In this document: one piece after another, positions 4,017 to 63,802 of the stretch
How positions within the stretch are numbered: the stretch's first letter is position 1
How the letters are laid out: each line of letters begins with the position of its first letter
From: Acetobacteroides hydrogenigenes
Lineage (GTDB): Bacteria > Bacteroidota > Bacteroidia > Bacteroidales > ZOR0009
Direction: 5' to 3'
Assembly: GCF_004340205.1 (NCBI RefSeq)
Contig: NZ_SLWB01000011.1
Location: 62,001 to 126,000 of the forward strand
Length of the DNA: 64,000 nucleotides
The notes under the pieces: model-generated
What the model saw: the letters and a program-made list of their open reading frames with translations, nothing else
The model's database searches: none
What the model was told of the DNA's origin: nothing
Translations under genes and position numbers: made by a program

Positions 4017-4276
4017 CGCTTAATTGAGCAGCCTACTAAGCTTAATTGAGCAGCTTACTGCGATGAATGCAGTAAACGGCTGAGCTTAATTCAGGAACCT
4101 ACTGCGATAAATTCAGTAGCCGGCTGAATTAAATTCAAATATTTGGTAGCTTAATTCAGCAGCCTACTGAATTAAATTAAGACGAAGCCTGAATTAAGTA
4201 GAGTAAGCCGCTGAATTTAATTGAGAAAAAGGCGAATTTATTTCAGCAGCCTACTGAACTAAATTCAGCACCCGCC
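4017..4276. repeat. Array A: twelve imperfect 22-bp units
   Basis: Twelve consecutive units of 22 bp (two of 21 bp, the last cut short), with a consensus close to nnTTAATTCAGCAGCCTACTG. Units 2 and 4, and units 3 and 5, resemble each other most, giving a 44-bp super-period. Many junctions form dyads: TTACTGC-7 nt-GCAGTAA at 4054-4074, CTACTG-9 nt-CAGTAG one super-unit later, and AATTCAG-7 nt-CTGAATT around 4152-4172. Changes in one arm are matched in the other. The array ends 224 bases before the gene at 4501. It is non-coding in all frames. Confidence 0.85.
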
Positions 4277-24130: not shown

Positions 24131-24712
24131 CTATATAACATAGAATGGATCGCCATCCCATTTGGCAGGATTCCCTACGATATATTGGGCAATGCGCGGG
24201 TACAATTGTTTGGGGCAATCGGTGGGGCGCACGTAGGGGCGAAAAATTTTTCGCCCTTACATACGCCATTATATTCCCCACAACCCCCATCATCCACAAT
24301 TTGTACAATGCAATGTACATGATTGGGCATGATTACATATTCGTGTAAAACAACATTTGGATAATGGTGCGGAATCACCATTTTGTGGGCGAAATATGTT
24401 TCGCCCCTACAATCCCAACCATCACAACCATCCACAAATTTGTACAATGCAATGTACATGATTGGGCATTATTACATATTCGTGTAAAACAACATTTGGA
24501 TAATGGTGCGGAATCACCATTTTGTGGGCGAAATATGTTTCGCCCCTACAATCCCAACCATCACAACCATCCACAAATTTGTACAATGCAATGTACATGA
24601 TTGGGCATTATTGCGTATTCGTGTAAAACAACATTTGGATAATGGTGCCGAATATCCATACGGTTTGGACGAAAAATTTTTCGCCCCTACGGCAAATCCT
24701 ATGTAATCCCAT
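24131..24712 (-). pseudogene. Decayed RAYT copy with expanded internal repeats
   Basis: On the minus strand the last codons read AQYIVGNPAKWDGDPFYVI then a stop, clearly the RAYT C-terminus. The Tyr-helix region is missing, and the HUH segment (YVIMPNHVHCIVQIVDDGG) is present several times because of the 139-bp tandem repeat. Frames are broken throughout. It lies between the intact RAYT gene and the TonB receptor at 24766. Confidence 0.8.
24301..24660. repeat. 139-bp tandem repeat, about 2.6 copies
   Basis: The segment starting TTGTACAATGCAATGTACAT recurs at 24301, 24440 and 24579, an exact 139-bp step. Each unit contains a RAYT HUH fragment and one REP hairpin (GGGCGAAATATGTTTCGCCC), so it looks like recent local duplication of REP/RAYT sequence. 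Confidence 0.9.
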
Positions 24713-29079: not shown

Positions 29080-29352
29080 TATCTCCTAACCGTCCATGAT
29101 TATCTCCTACCCGTCCACGGATAACTCCTAACCATCGACGGTTAACTGTTTGCCATCGACGATTATCTCTTAGCCATCCATGATTAACTGTTCACCATCG
29201 ACAATTATCTCTTAACCATCGACGGTTAACTGTTCACCATCGACGATTAACTCCTAACCATCGACGGTTAACTGTTTATCGTCGACGATTATCTCTTAGC
29301 CGTCCATGGTTAACTCCTAACCGTGCATGGTTTTCTCTTAGCCATCGACGGT
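29080..29352. repeat. Array B: thirteen exact 21-bp units
   Basis: Thirteen head-to-tail units, each exactly 21 bp with no indel, consensus close to TAACTCCTAACCATCGACGG plus T. The unit core is a dyad, TTAACC-nTCGAn-GGTTAA, in the best copies. Variation is confined to certain columns: positions 1, 4, 5, 8, 12, 14 and 17 are nearly constant, and positions 2-3, 6-7, 9-10, 13, 15-16 and 18-20 alternate between two or three states. It is closed in all reading frames. The nearest downstream gene is at 29756. Confidence 0.92.
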
Positions 29353-29588
29353 TTTTGATTTAAGCAGGAGCTTACCTAGCGAGCAATACTTGGTAAGGTG
29401 ACAGGTGCCGATGTAGTAGAGGTAGGTTCGTACGGATTGGCGGTGGCCTAATCCGTCATGTAGCTTGCAATGCGTCAAAAGCTATAGTTTGGCACACCTC
29501 TACCAACATCAAGTTTAACGCAAAGGCCATTGCAAGCACAACTACCTAGTAATGTACGTGCAGTATATTTCAAAATATTTTCACATTA
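29353..29588. other. Spacer between array B and the 29756 promoter
   Basis: No gene or clear repeat is seen here. It contains a few weak inverted repeats around 29405-29520, such as AGGTGACAGGTG and GAGGTAGG against CACACCTCTACC. Confidence 0.35.
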
Positions 29589-40576: not shown

Positions 40577-40788
40577 TCCTCCTGCACAAAGGGAGCTCGT
40601 TTACTCTTCTTTTAGACTCAACGCTACTGGGCCATTTCTCCCTTTGGAGGATGGCCCAAGCTATTTTTAAACGAAGCTGTAGACCTACGGAATGGGCCAA
40701 GTTTCATTTTTTTGATGGATTTGTTGACCGACAAATGGAGGTAAAACCATTATAGTCCCCACTCATCGCCAAGACCCGTAGCAAAATT

Positions 40789-51446: not shown

Positions 51447-51822
51447 TTTCGGCAAGGGCGCATTCCATTTCGGGAGCGCCAAGGTTCGTTTCGCTACTGG
51501 CAACCTTCTTTTCGGTGCAGCCAAGCTTAGCTTCGGGGCACCCGCATCAATTTCCGTTCAGCTAGGATTCATTTCGTTGCAGTCGAGCTTGATTTCGGAG
51601 CAGCCAGGCTTTATTTCGGAAGCATCAAACGTCATTTCGTCAGCGTCACATGTCATTGCGTCATGTTCAAGCTTTATTTCGGAGCATCCAAGCTTCATTT
51701 CGGAAGCGCCAAACGTCATTTCGTCAGCATCACATGTCATTGCGTCATGTTCAAGCTTCGTTTCGGAGCAGCCAAGCTTCATTTCGGAGGCGACAGGGTT
51801 CGTTTCGCTGTTGCCATGCCCC
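51447..51822. repeat. Array C: about eighteen 21-bp units
   Basis: Consecutive units beginning TTTCGG, consensus close to TTTCGGAGCAGCCAAGCTTC plus A; only unit 5 and the last unit deviate from 21 bp. Weaker units seem to extend back to about 51391. Units 8-11 and 12-15 form an 84-bp duplication with about 8 differences. Dyads span the unit borders, such as GCTTC-ATTTCG-GAAGC. Because 21 is a multiple of 3 the array gives open frames on both strands, but these have no start context or family match and I treat them as spurious. The gene at 51906 starts 83 bases on. Confidence 0.88.
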
Positions 51823-61092: not shown

Positions 61093-63153
61093 TTATCTAC
61101 TAATCATCTCCAAGCTGCGCTTTAGGAAGCTGTTTAGCGCCTCGCCCTTAAGCATGTTGTTGGAGAGCAGCGCTAGGTCGATGAGCTGGTGCACGATCTT
61201 GTGCGACTTACCCCAGCTACCCAGCATATCGGACTCCTCCTTGCGGATGGCCTCTACCTTACCCTCTACCTCTTCGATACGGGTCTTGAGCTCGGCTGGA
61301 ACGTCCTCGTCCTTTTTATCGCCCTTTTGCTTGTTAAGGTCGGCTAGAACATCCTCCTCGGCCTTAAGCTTAGCCTTGTACTCGGTAATCTTATCCTTCA
61401 GCTCGGTGTTTAGATCGTCCTTAATCTCGGTTACCAGCGGATGGTTGGCGTTTACCACCACGTTGTACGAGTCGGGCATCTTGCCGTAGAAGTTCATTCC
61501 GCCACCGCCGCCCATTTGCGACATATCCTTCATGCGGCGCATGAACTCGTTTTGGGTGATGACTACCGGTGCTGCAGTTTCGCTAAGCGCCTCGAACGAC
61601 ACGTGGTACATGGCCTCGCCGCCCTCGGGGGTGTTGGCCTCGAATACGGGCTTCAGGTTCTCCTGCTCGTCGGGGGTAATCTTCCACTCCTTCTTCTTGT
61701 CCTTACGAACAAGGTTATCCATCACATCCGAGTCTACACGTACAAACTGTGCGTTCTCCAGCTTACCTTCGAGCATCTGCACGAAGTGGCTGTCGAGCTG
61801 GCCATCCATCACCATAACGTTGTACTGATGCGCCTTTGCGGCCTGGATGAAGCTGTACTGCGCCTCGGGGTCGTTGCTGTAGATGTACACCAGCTTACCG
61901 TCCTTGTCGGTTTGCTCCTCCTTAATGGCATCTTTATACTCCTCGAAGGTGTAGTGCTTGCCATCAACATCCTTAAACATAGCAAACTTGGCAGCGCTAT
62001 CGTAGAACTTCTCGTCGGTAAGCATGCCGTACTCCACGAAGAGCTTCAGGTCGGCCCACTTCTGCTCGTAGGTTTCGCGCTCGTTCTTGAAAAGGGTGCT
62101 CAGGCGATCGGCCACCTTCTTGGTGATGTGGTTCGAAATCTTCTTAACGTTGGCATCGGACTGCAGGTAGCTGCGCGATACGTTAAGCGGAATATCGGGC
62201 GAGTCGATAACCCCGTGTAGCAGGGTAAGGAACTCGGGCACGATGCCCTCTACCGAGTCGGTAACGAATACCTGGTTGCAGTAGAGCTGTATCTTATTCT
62301 TCTGTAAATCGATGTTGTTCGAAATCTTAGGGAAGTAGAGTATCCCGGTAAGATTAAAGGGGTAGTCCACGTTTAGGTGGATATGGAACATGGGCTCGTC
62401 GGCCATGGGGTAAAGCGTGCGGTAGAACTCGGCGTAGTCCTCGTCCTTGAGCTCGGCAGGCTTCTTTGTCCAGATAGGGTTGGTTTGGTTGATGATGTTA
62501 TCCTCATCGGTATCCTCGTACTTGCTATCCTTCCACTCCTTCTTCTTGCCGAAGGCGATTTCGATAGGCATGAACTTGCAGTACTTGTTCAGCAGCGCGC
62601 TGATGCGGCTCTCCTCTAGGAACTCCTCGCTATCGTCGGCTACGTGTAGGATGATGTCGGTACCACGGCGCTCGCGGGTGGTATCCTCGATGGTGTACTC
62701 GGGGCTACCGTCGCACTCCCAGCGTACGGCAGGCGCATCCTTCCACGACTTGGTAACCACCTCTACCGAGCTGCTCACCATAAACGACGAGTAGAAGCCC
62801 ATACCAAAGTGTCCGATGATCTGTACCGACTGGTCCTTAAACTTATCCAAGAACTCCTCGGCACCCGAGAAAGCTATTTGGTTGATGTACTTCTCCACCT
62901 CGTCCTGGGTCATCCCCACACCGGCATCCGACACGGTGATGGTCTTCTTCTCCTTATCCACGCTCACGCGGATGGTCAAATCGCCCAGCTCCTGCTTGCA
63001 CTCGCCGGTACCCACCAGCGTTTTGAGCTTTTGGGTGGCATCAACGGCATTCGACACCAGCTCGCGTAGGAAAATTTCGTGGTCGGAGTACAGGAATTTC
63101 TTGATGATGGGGAAGATATTTTCGGTAGATACCCCAATTTTACCTTTTTGCAT
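61093..63153 (-). CDS. htpG: Molecular chaperone HtpG (Hsp90)
   Basis: A 686-residue Hsp90 chaperone. The N-terminal ATPase domain shows FLRELVSNAVDATQKL, VSDAGVGMTQDEV, FGMGFYSSFMV and GTDIILHV; the middle domain has the catalytic Arg segment IPLNVSRSYLQSD. The C-terminal part has an unusual acidic/lysine insert (ADLNKQKGDKKDEDVPAE). The start at 63153 (MQKGKIGV) matches the family; the longer ORF would run through the promoter. Single gene. Confidence 0.96.
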   Translation of the reverse strand: MQKGKIGVSTENIFPIIKKFLYSDHEIFLRELVSNAVDATQKLKTLVGTGECKQELGDLTIRVSVDKEKKTITVSDAGVGMTQDEVEKYINQIAFSGAEEFLDKFKDQSVQIIGHFGMGFYSSFMVSSSVEVVTKSWKDAPAVRWECDGSPEYTIEDTTRERRGTDIILHVADDSEEFLEESRISALLNKYCKFMPIEIAFGKKKEWKDSKYEDTDEDNIINQTNPIWTKKPAELKDEDYAEFYRTLYPMADEPMFHIHLNVDYPFNLTGILYFPKISNNIDLQKNKIQLYCNQVFVTDSVEGIVPEFLTLLHGVIDSPDIPLNVSRSYLQSDANVKKISNHITKKVADRLSTLFKNERETYEQKWADLKLFVEYGMLTDEKFYDSAAKFAMFKDVDGKHYTFEEYKDAIKEEQTDKDGKLVYIYSNDPEAQYSFIQAAKAHQYNVMVMDGQLDSHFVQMLEGKLENAQFVRVDSDVMDNLVRKDKKKEWKITPDEQENLKPVFEANTPEGGEAMYHVSFEALSETAAPVVITQNEFMRRMKDMSQMGGGGGMNFYGKMPDSYNVVVNANHPLVTEIKDDLNTELKDKITEYKAKLKAEEDVLADLNKQKGDKKDEDVPAELKTRIEEVEGKVEAIRKEESDMLGSWGKSHKIVHQLIDLALLSNNMLKGEALNSFLKRSLEMISR

Positions 63154-63321: not shown

Positions 63322-63741
63322 ACTTCCGACTATCGGTTTGTACTGCTGAATCCGCTCAGTAGTACTTCCAGCCTCCTGTTTGTACTGCTGAATTCGTTCA
63401 GTAGTACTTCCGCCTACCCATTTGCACCGTTGTACATTTACAAGAGTACTTTCATCTACCCGTTTGTACCGTTGTACATTTACAATAGTACTTCCATCGA
63501 CCCGTTTGTACTAACACCTCTGCGTGTTTATACTTTTGGGCACCAGTTTTCACTAACACCTCCGCGTGTTTCTACTTCTGGGCATCGGTTTGTACTAACA
63601 CGTTTGCGTGTTTCTACTTCCTCCTACCCGTTTGCACTAACACCTCCGCGTGTTTCTACTTCCGGGCATCGGTTTGCACTAACACGTTTGCGTGTTTTCA
63701 CTTCCGACTAACCGTTTGTACTAGCAACTCCAGAGGGTTGA
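63322..63741. repeat. Array D: ten exact 42-bp units
   Basis: Ten units of exactly 42 bp with no indel. Each has a fairly constant half, near ACTTCCGnCTACCCGTTTGT, and a half that is an inverted repeat. The inverted repeat changes along the array in a paired manner: CTGA/TCAG in units 1-2, TTGTA/TACAA in units 3-4, AACAC/GTGTT in units 5-9, CAAC/GTTG in unit 10. The two halves are both 21 bp and share a TACT-n11-GT skeleton. It lies upstream of the htpG promoter; no small-protein gene is adjacent. Confidence 0.92.
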
Positions 63742-63770: not shown

Positions 63771-63802
63771 AAAAAGCGCCTCCCACACGGTGAAAGGCGC
63801 TC
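63771..63802 (-). terminator. Intrinsic terminator of the DUF6263-like gene
   Basis: Arms GAGCGCC and GGCGC with a T5 run on the minus strand, 20 bases past the stop codon. Confidence 0.85.

Follow-up and report, generated by a model that had tools for sequence, protein, structure and literature searches.

The gene htpG of Acetobacteroides hydrogenigenes adjoins a tandem array, array D, which lies at positions 63322-63741 of the window, the 64,000-nucleotide stretch of DNA that was analysed. Array D is tentatively read, with confidence not far from even, as a palindromic satellite at the level of DNA and not as an RNA gene, its 21-bp dyad monomers being set in a GTAC frame and joined into 42-bp dimers. 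It is one of a genus-wide class of intergenic short repeat arrays, nearly all of which follow a 21-bp step regardless of their sequence. The arrays are of a known kind, prokaryotic tandem satellites; the surprising part is the common 21-bp ruler. The satellite reading is favoured by arms that are nearly invariant within each module type, by modules that recur among arrays and species, and by differences in copy number and make-up from one species to another.

Array D consists of ten consecutive 42-bp units, each formed by two 21-bp half-units, and not a single indel separates them, as the initial annotation had described. The units are equal in length and not in sequence (mean column identity of 73%). 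Constancy of unit length, also claimed initially, holds for array D and not for its family, where array L012 of the sister species has one shortened unit. Units 1-2 (63322-63405) carry a GCTGA/TCAGT dyad module with arms CTGA/TCAG, units 3-4 (63406-63489) a TTGTA/TACAA module and units 5-9 (63490-63699) an AACAC/GTGTT module. The terminal unit 10 (63700-63741) has a CAAC/GTTG dyad whose axis is shifted by 2 bp from the common one, which puts this unit out of register. No strand is assigned to the array or its units, nor to the other arrays of the window given below. The second half-units comprise nine distinct sequences with three recurring arm types, and the first half-units are different in all ten units, so that a CRISPR array, with identical repeats and unique spacers, was discarded. 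With its ten 42-bp units array D falls among prokaryotic satellites, defined as tandem arrays of at least four regular repeats. A coding repeat is likewise improbable: the 147-aa ORF that spans most of array D is a mechanical one, and the lags of 41 and 43 found in other arrays would break the reading frame.

The htpG gene (61093-63153) is on the minus strand with its ATG at 63151-63153, about 170 bp from array D. A terminator-like hairpin is found on the minus strand at the opposite side of the array (63774-63802), and on the plus strand the unit 10 hairpin (63725-63740), which has a T-rich stretch after it, also gives a terminator-like score. The scan of this region gave three such terminators versus 1.0 expected. 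An ACATT-like motif, identified by eye, precedes several arrays (D, L147 and L151).

The arms were initially said to change together from unit to unit. When the units are aligned without gaps, 74.5% of the cells on the shared dyad axis (A2, 11 pairs) pair, versus 61.1% after shuffling, and the covariation score is 0.453 versus 0.189. None of 500 shuffles scored as high and slid versions reached at most 0.131, these controls taking the units as independent and ignoring their kinship. The claim thus stands for the second half-unit, while the first shows no covariation (A1 score of 0.084 versus 0.103 shuffled) and unit 10 is off the axis. The covariation of array D is that of about three blocks of units, not of ten independent events; a few palindromic modules (GCTGA, TTGTA and AACAC types) are found on one axis within the GTAC frame. 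The alignment of the D family (likewise labelled A1), which kept 66 of 71 42-mers after the five scoring 5 or less were dropped, has a covariation score of 0.427 versus 0.220 shuffled and at most 0.199 slid. Its 66 units are of the TTGTA (33), AACAC (22), GCTGA (2) and other (9) types. An AACCTA/TAGGTT unit of array L006, one of the nine others, sits on the same axis, and some of these nine may be decayed members of the main types.

Units were typed by their left arm and the right arm is therefore the fairer measure of conservation. It reads GTGTT in 21 of the 22 AACAC units and TACAA in 30 of the 33 TTGTA units, with loops that vary (identity of 0.61 and 0.72, respectively). The four-fold sites of htpG are 75.6% identical (189/250) between this genome (G000) and the sister species (G002); by our own arithmetic the 20 arm bases of the two modules, if each were neutral, would all be kept with a probability of ~0.004. 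Among 70 arrays with a best lag of 41-44 and at least three units, 40 have a perfectly paired consensus stem of 5 bp or more, versus 14.7 in permuted controls (maximum 26), and 30 have none. Conservation in the 40 stem-bearing arrays amounts to 0.922 in arms, 0.838 in loops and 0.869 in spacers. The arm excess is 0.084 over loops (column-permuted controls: mean ~0, maximum 0.058) and 0.053 over spacers (control maximum 0.049), and it persists when the GTAC family is removed (30 arrays, p = 4e-4 and 2e-4). The early view that array D looks different from a minisatellite in mere decay is supported.

Selection of base pairing itself, proposed at the same time, did not find such support. In 92 arrays, 51 of 124 double changes on the dyad axis are Watson-Crick, versus 116 of 359 when the axis is slid (Fisher p = 0.08). 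One-sided arm changes prevail (586), and a single array has at least three matched double changes that outnumber the unmatched ones. Because the units were divided at a constant period, indels add noise to these counts. The covariation that was to be sought in array D and homologous loci is present in the D family, and compensatory changes are only weakly enriched over the 92 arrays. As right arms are kept, loops vary and compensation is weakly enriched, the sequence of the arms looks constrained while pairing as such does not. The arm changes within array D look like swaps between modules present in both species. The hairpin energy of consensus units has a mean z of -0.91 in G000 (37 arrays), -1.17 in G002 (33) and -0.57 in G001, the third species of the genus (16); random 42-mers give -0.14 and -0.36, and many arrays have no energy excess.

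D-type arrays were detected by blastn at four other places in G000 and several in G002, with one weak match in G001. The sequence of array D is matched in 3 of 41 genomes, all of one genus, and in 3 of 295 genomes of the order, which are the same three (among the matches listed, where no more than two candidates were scored per genome). The exact AACAC pattern with a GTRC flank is found at 10 sites in three arrays of G000 and 11 sites in three arrays of G002, and the exact TTGTA pattern at 7 sites in three arrays and 28 sites in four arrays, respectively, some sites being counted on both strands. Together they mark five arrays in each of the two species; neither was found outside arrays in the three genomes, nor anywhere in G001. 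The GCTGA pattern, with two mismatches allowed, has three further matches outside array D, which is near background since the backward control gave one match in each of two genomes.

The number of units differs between relatives: array D has ten, and the orthologous htpG array of G002 (L147) comprises 11, of which six are of the TTGTA type, four of the AACAC type and one is terminal. A second orthologous place carries AACAC units in G000 (L002/L130) and TTGTA units in G002 (L151). TRF found no array with a score of at least 40 and a period of at least 12 in the htpG stretch (11.6 kb) of G001. In the orthologous arrays at L128 14496-14894 and L150 5355-5474 one half, CTGCAAACCTGCGGCA-like, stays constant and the palindrome is exchanged (ATTATGCATGCATAAT versus AATCCCTATAGGGA-type), the same pattern as in array D.

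The wider class was surveyed in about one tenth of each genome. TRF analysis of 1.24 Mb from the three species gave 87 arrays at a score of at least 100, those scoring below 100 being omitted from the counts, and the best lag (range 12-60) is 21, 22 or 41-44 bp in 86 of them (38/38, 33/33 and 15/16 by species). One of the 86, at L125 10717-11135, is a 227-bp tandem duplication (1.8 copies, 99% matches) and not a class member; by eye it contains a tRNA-like sequence. For other Bacteroidales, 813 kb surrounding htpG gave 29 arrays, 14 of them with these best lags; arrays of 20-23 bp, some palindromic by eye, are present at lower density. The 58 arrays with a best lag of 42 have a mean lag-21 identity of 0.413 versus 0.266 in the control, which agrees with the early proposal that the 21-bp period of the halves of array D is common to other arrays. 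At lags 10-11 their identity falls short of the control, and with no such signal one-turn bending was rejected.

Within the window the class is also represented by arrays at 29083-29353 (21/42-bp period, GTTAACC...GGTTAAC palindromes), 51571-51807 (21/84-bp period) and 4018-4127 (22/44-bp period). A 139-bp tandem repeat at 24291-24690 (2.9 copies, 94% matches) exceeds the common step. Contigs carrying htpG from Prevotella have 22-bp arrays, palindromic by eye (L021 7201-7292, L050 4778-4857 and L056 4027-4099), which suggests that the class extends more widely in the Bacteroidales, where its step would differ slightly.

Both G000 and G002 have 78 arrays per Mb, and G001 has 46.5, as determined in stretches that were not chosen for arrays; the window and 4 of the 20 G000 stretches, 4 of the first 20 of G002 and 2 of the first 20 of G001 had been chosen for D-type arrays or htpG and were omitted. 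The G001 value is biased because each of its 18 stretches runs from the start of a contig, a place where arrays accumulate (of the 17 G001 arrays, 7 start within 100 bases of it); the stretches of the five control genomes likewise begin at contig starts. Tandem arrays take up about 1.7 and 2.0% of the DNA sampled from two species of the genus. The genus probably has several hundred arrays between genes, and the A. hydrogenigenes genome roughly 300 by extrapolation, most of them intergenic. Six later stretches included, 94 arrays were collected (38 in G000, 39 in G002 and 17 in G001), 92 of which entered the tests of dyad spacing and compensatory change. A rough gene call places 76 of 79 arrays in intergenic regions and 3 in coding sequence, a further 15 of the 94 being unplaced. 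They lie between tandem (44), convergent (18) and divergent (14) genes, an orientation mix similar to that of background gaps of at least 60 bp (312, 92 and 98, respectively).

Arrays turn over at orthologous gaps. Six intergenic sites of G000 have two-sided anchors in sampled G002 DNA, at most 7.5 kb apart, and all six hold a G002 array; synteny from G002 to G000 was checked by eye and non-exhaustively. Beside one common anchor, L127 2086-2653 and L146 18791-19079 are arrays of unrelated sequence, as judged by eye. The L146 array has a 21-bp period and about 14 units, each with TTATCCACG on one strand, a motif that resembles a DnaA box. A single palindromic unit at 40720-40736 of the window has as G002 counterpart six 41-bp units (L175 15235-15457). 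L126 has no array and L173 has one, and the near-empty site L207 is opposed to array L132. No GTAC array was found at the G002 counterpart places of the G000 arrays on C5 and C6. The C5 counterpart is a faintly periodic other sequence (identity of 0.318/0.317 at lags 21/42, next best 0.297) and the C6 counterpart is a gap of 16 bp, while its place in G001 is occupied by an array of 21-bp period whose sequence is unrelated (L208 2760-2960, lag-21 identity of 0.589). Some orthologous gaps are thus occupied by unrelated arrays of the same period. The half-1 core of L006 and L146 is inverted relative to L141 (inverted identity of 0.64 and 0.61, direct identity of 0.19 and 0.15), which fits template switching, with modest pooled tests (8 and 12 of 1000 permutations as high).

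In the satellite reading, slippage or unequal exchange would raise the number of units. A stalled strand would be able to switch template at the short inverted repeats, so that the arms stay matched and the intervening segment is sometimes inverted, and modules may pass between arrays through the common half-unit. Recognition of the dyad, by whatever agent binds or propagates the arrays, would be what preserves the arms. The reading requires no RNA product. The reading has its difficulties: slippage and template switching alone leave the 21-bp step of unrelated arrays unexplained; the AACAC and TTGTA arms are identical across loci and species in spite of the divergence at the htpG four-fold sites; 30 of the 70 arrays examined for stems have no perfect one; and the pooled inversion tests are modest. 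It is possible, though on the whole unlikely, that a ruler operates in the genus: a protein or enzyme measuring two helical turns would make or keep arrays at 21 bp whatever their sequence, and unrelated arrays would emerge and succeed one another in the same intergenic gaps.

The two-turn period of nearly all sampled arrays and their 21-bp monomer would also be expected if each monomer were the site of a symmetric dimer, such as a nucleoid or architectural protein, with one dimer per two turns, all on the same side of the helix. Such phased binding is rather improbable here. It accounts for operator-like arms that are conserved, also across species, around free loops, and for the spacing of 21 bp between the top two dyads, seen in 12 of 54 arrays of low lag-21 identity versus 4% of shuffled consensus sequences (drawn from the 92 arrays). 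The arms differ between array families, however, so that one sequence-specific protein cannot read all of them, and the one-turn signal is missing, identity at lags 10-11 being below the control. The two module patterns searched exactly occur only inside arrays, and in the sister species the counterpart of one array is an almost empty site of 16 bp.

A purely mutational satellite, in which hairpin-templated strand switching matches the arms and slippage multiplies the units in the absence of recognition or selection, appears quite improbable. Stems are reportedly both created and repaired by template switching (PMC8794818; PMC8604942), and weak compensation, inversion of segments between inverted repeats and sequence turnover at fixed places are in line with such a satellite. 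It predicts neither the conservation of arms between loci and species around variable loops nor the common 21-bp step.

REP/BIME-like elements mobilised by a Y1 (RAYT-type) transposase are a still less probable explanation. Array D shares with them a short stem, a variable loop, a tetranucleotide at the foot of the stem and a dispersed, mostly intergenic location, and Y1_Tnp matches number 3 in G000, 7 in G002 (6 above the cut-off) and 0 in G001, where the exact modules are absent. Against this, the ten Y1_Tnp loci (~1.5 kb on each side) have no convincing D-type unit: their best score is 11.8 (L108), the best scores in 32 background stretches of 20 kb range from 3.1 to 15.7, and 63 of the 66 A1 units score at least 11.8 on the D matrix, which was built from D. 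Four examined Y1_Tnp loci are flanked by other repeats, many spaced by 46-64 or 160-256 bp, and G001 has 21/42-bp arrays despite its zero Y1_Tnp matches. The Y1_Tnp genes of L103, L104, L105, L106 and L107 are found amid dispersed repeats of their own, many of them palindromic, e.g. TTCCGCGTAGCGGATA; those around the L104 gene were judged by eye only.

A structured RNA, either a leader or a small RNA with ten hairpins, is very improbable: covariation and folding as RNA (z of -4.39, minus strand) are in its favour, but the folding excess is similar as DNA (z of -4.17, plus strand), which does not tell the two apart, no Rfam covariance model matches the window segment 62900-64000 up to an E of 1, no sigma-70-like promoter was found with a scan model that excludes Bacteroidetes promoters, the arrays have no gene-orientation preference, and compensation is weak.

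Among described systems, the BrickBuilt minisatellite/MITE of Porphyromonas gingivalis has 23-nt units, and the 464/PgRS elements have 41 nt (PMC4596501, in the part of the paper available). BrickBuilt elements and the arrays described here are alike in being dispersed, intergenic Bacteroidales sequences with tandem units of about two turns and predicted stem-loops. In BrickBuilt a single repeated unit is enclosed by a leader and a tail with terminal inverted repeats (PMC4596501). At the level of blastn, matches among D-type arrays are essentially confined to the arrays. The arrays differ in having units of 21/42 bp instead of 23 nt, in being built of dimers and mosaic modules, and in the many unrelated arrays that follow one period.

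Prokaryotic satellites are few in most bacteria and dispersal of the non-coding ones is rare, only 18 of 119 species exceeding four per Mb, according to the bacterial survey of Subirana and Messeguer (PMC6749651). The satellites in that source are likewise tandem and some form dispersed non-coding families (Leptospira interrogans, Methanocella conradii), but its available part describes no common two-turn period. A rough re-implementation of their criterion, as given there, yields 37.5, 46.9 and 32.0 per Mb in the three species and 9.8 and 7.5 in two control sets, the latter values indicating that it may be laxer than the original. The REP/BIME, GTAG and CGTC repeats (PMC3733652, available part) resemble the arrays in their short stems, variable loops, tetranucleotide tag and clusters. 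In that text GTAG REPs have an unpaired GTAG tag at one end and are tied to RAYT genes, while the arrays have GTAC on both sides, mostly self-paired, and no such tie appears in the matrix scan of the ten Y1_Tnp loci. Template-switch (quasipalindrome) mutations cause multi-base matched arm changes and inversion between arms, as seen here, according to the available parts of PMC8794818 and PMC8604942; they are a process, not an element, and leave the 21-bp step unexplained. No description of two-turn satellites of this genus was found in the titles and abstract openings searched, which covered few subscription papers.

The nearly uniform two-turn step, the conserved arms and the fast turnover make the question of what sets the period of a satellite testable in a small genome. 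If the genus does have a two-turn ruler, array D would be one current occupant of an intergenic place of this type, its dyads being recognised by that machinery. More generally, block covariation in tandem repeats can arise from mixed module types, not from repeated compensation. The arrays may also explain assembly breaks, as several are found at contig starts in G001, where those at contig ends (L159, L162, L168, L169 and L170) probably interrupt the assembly.
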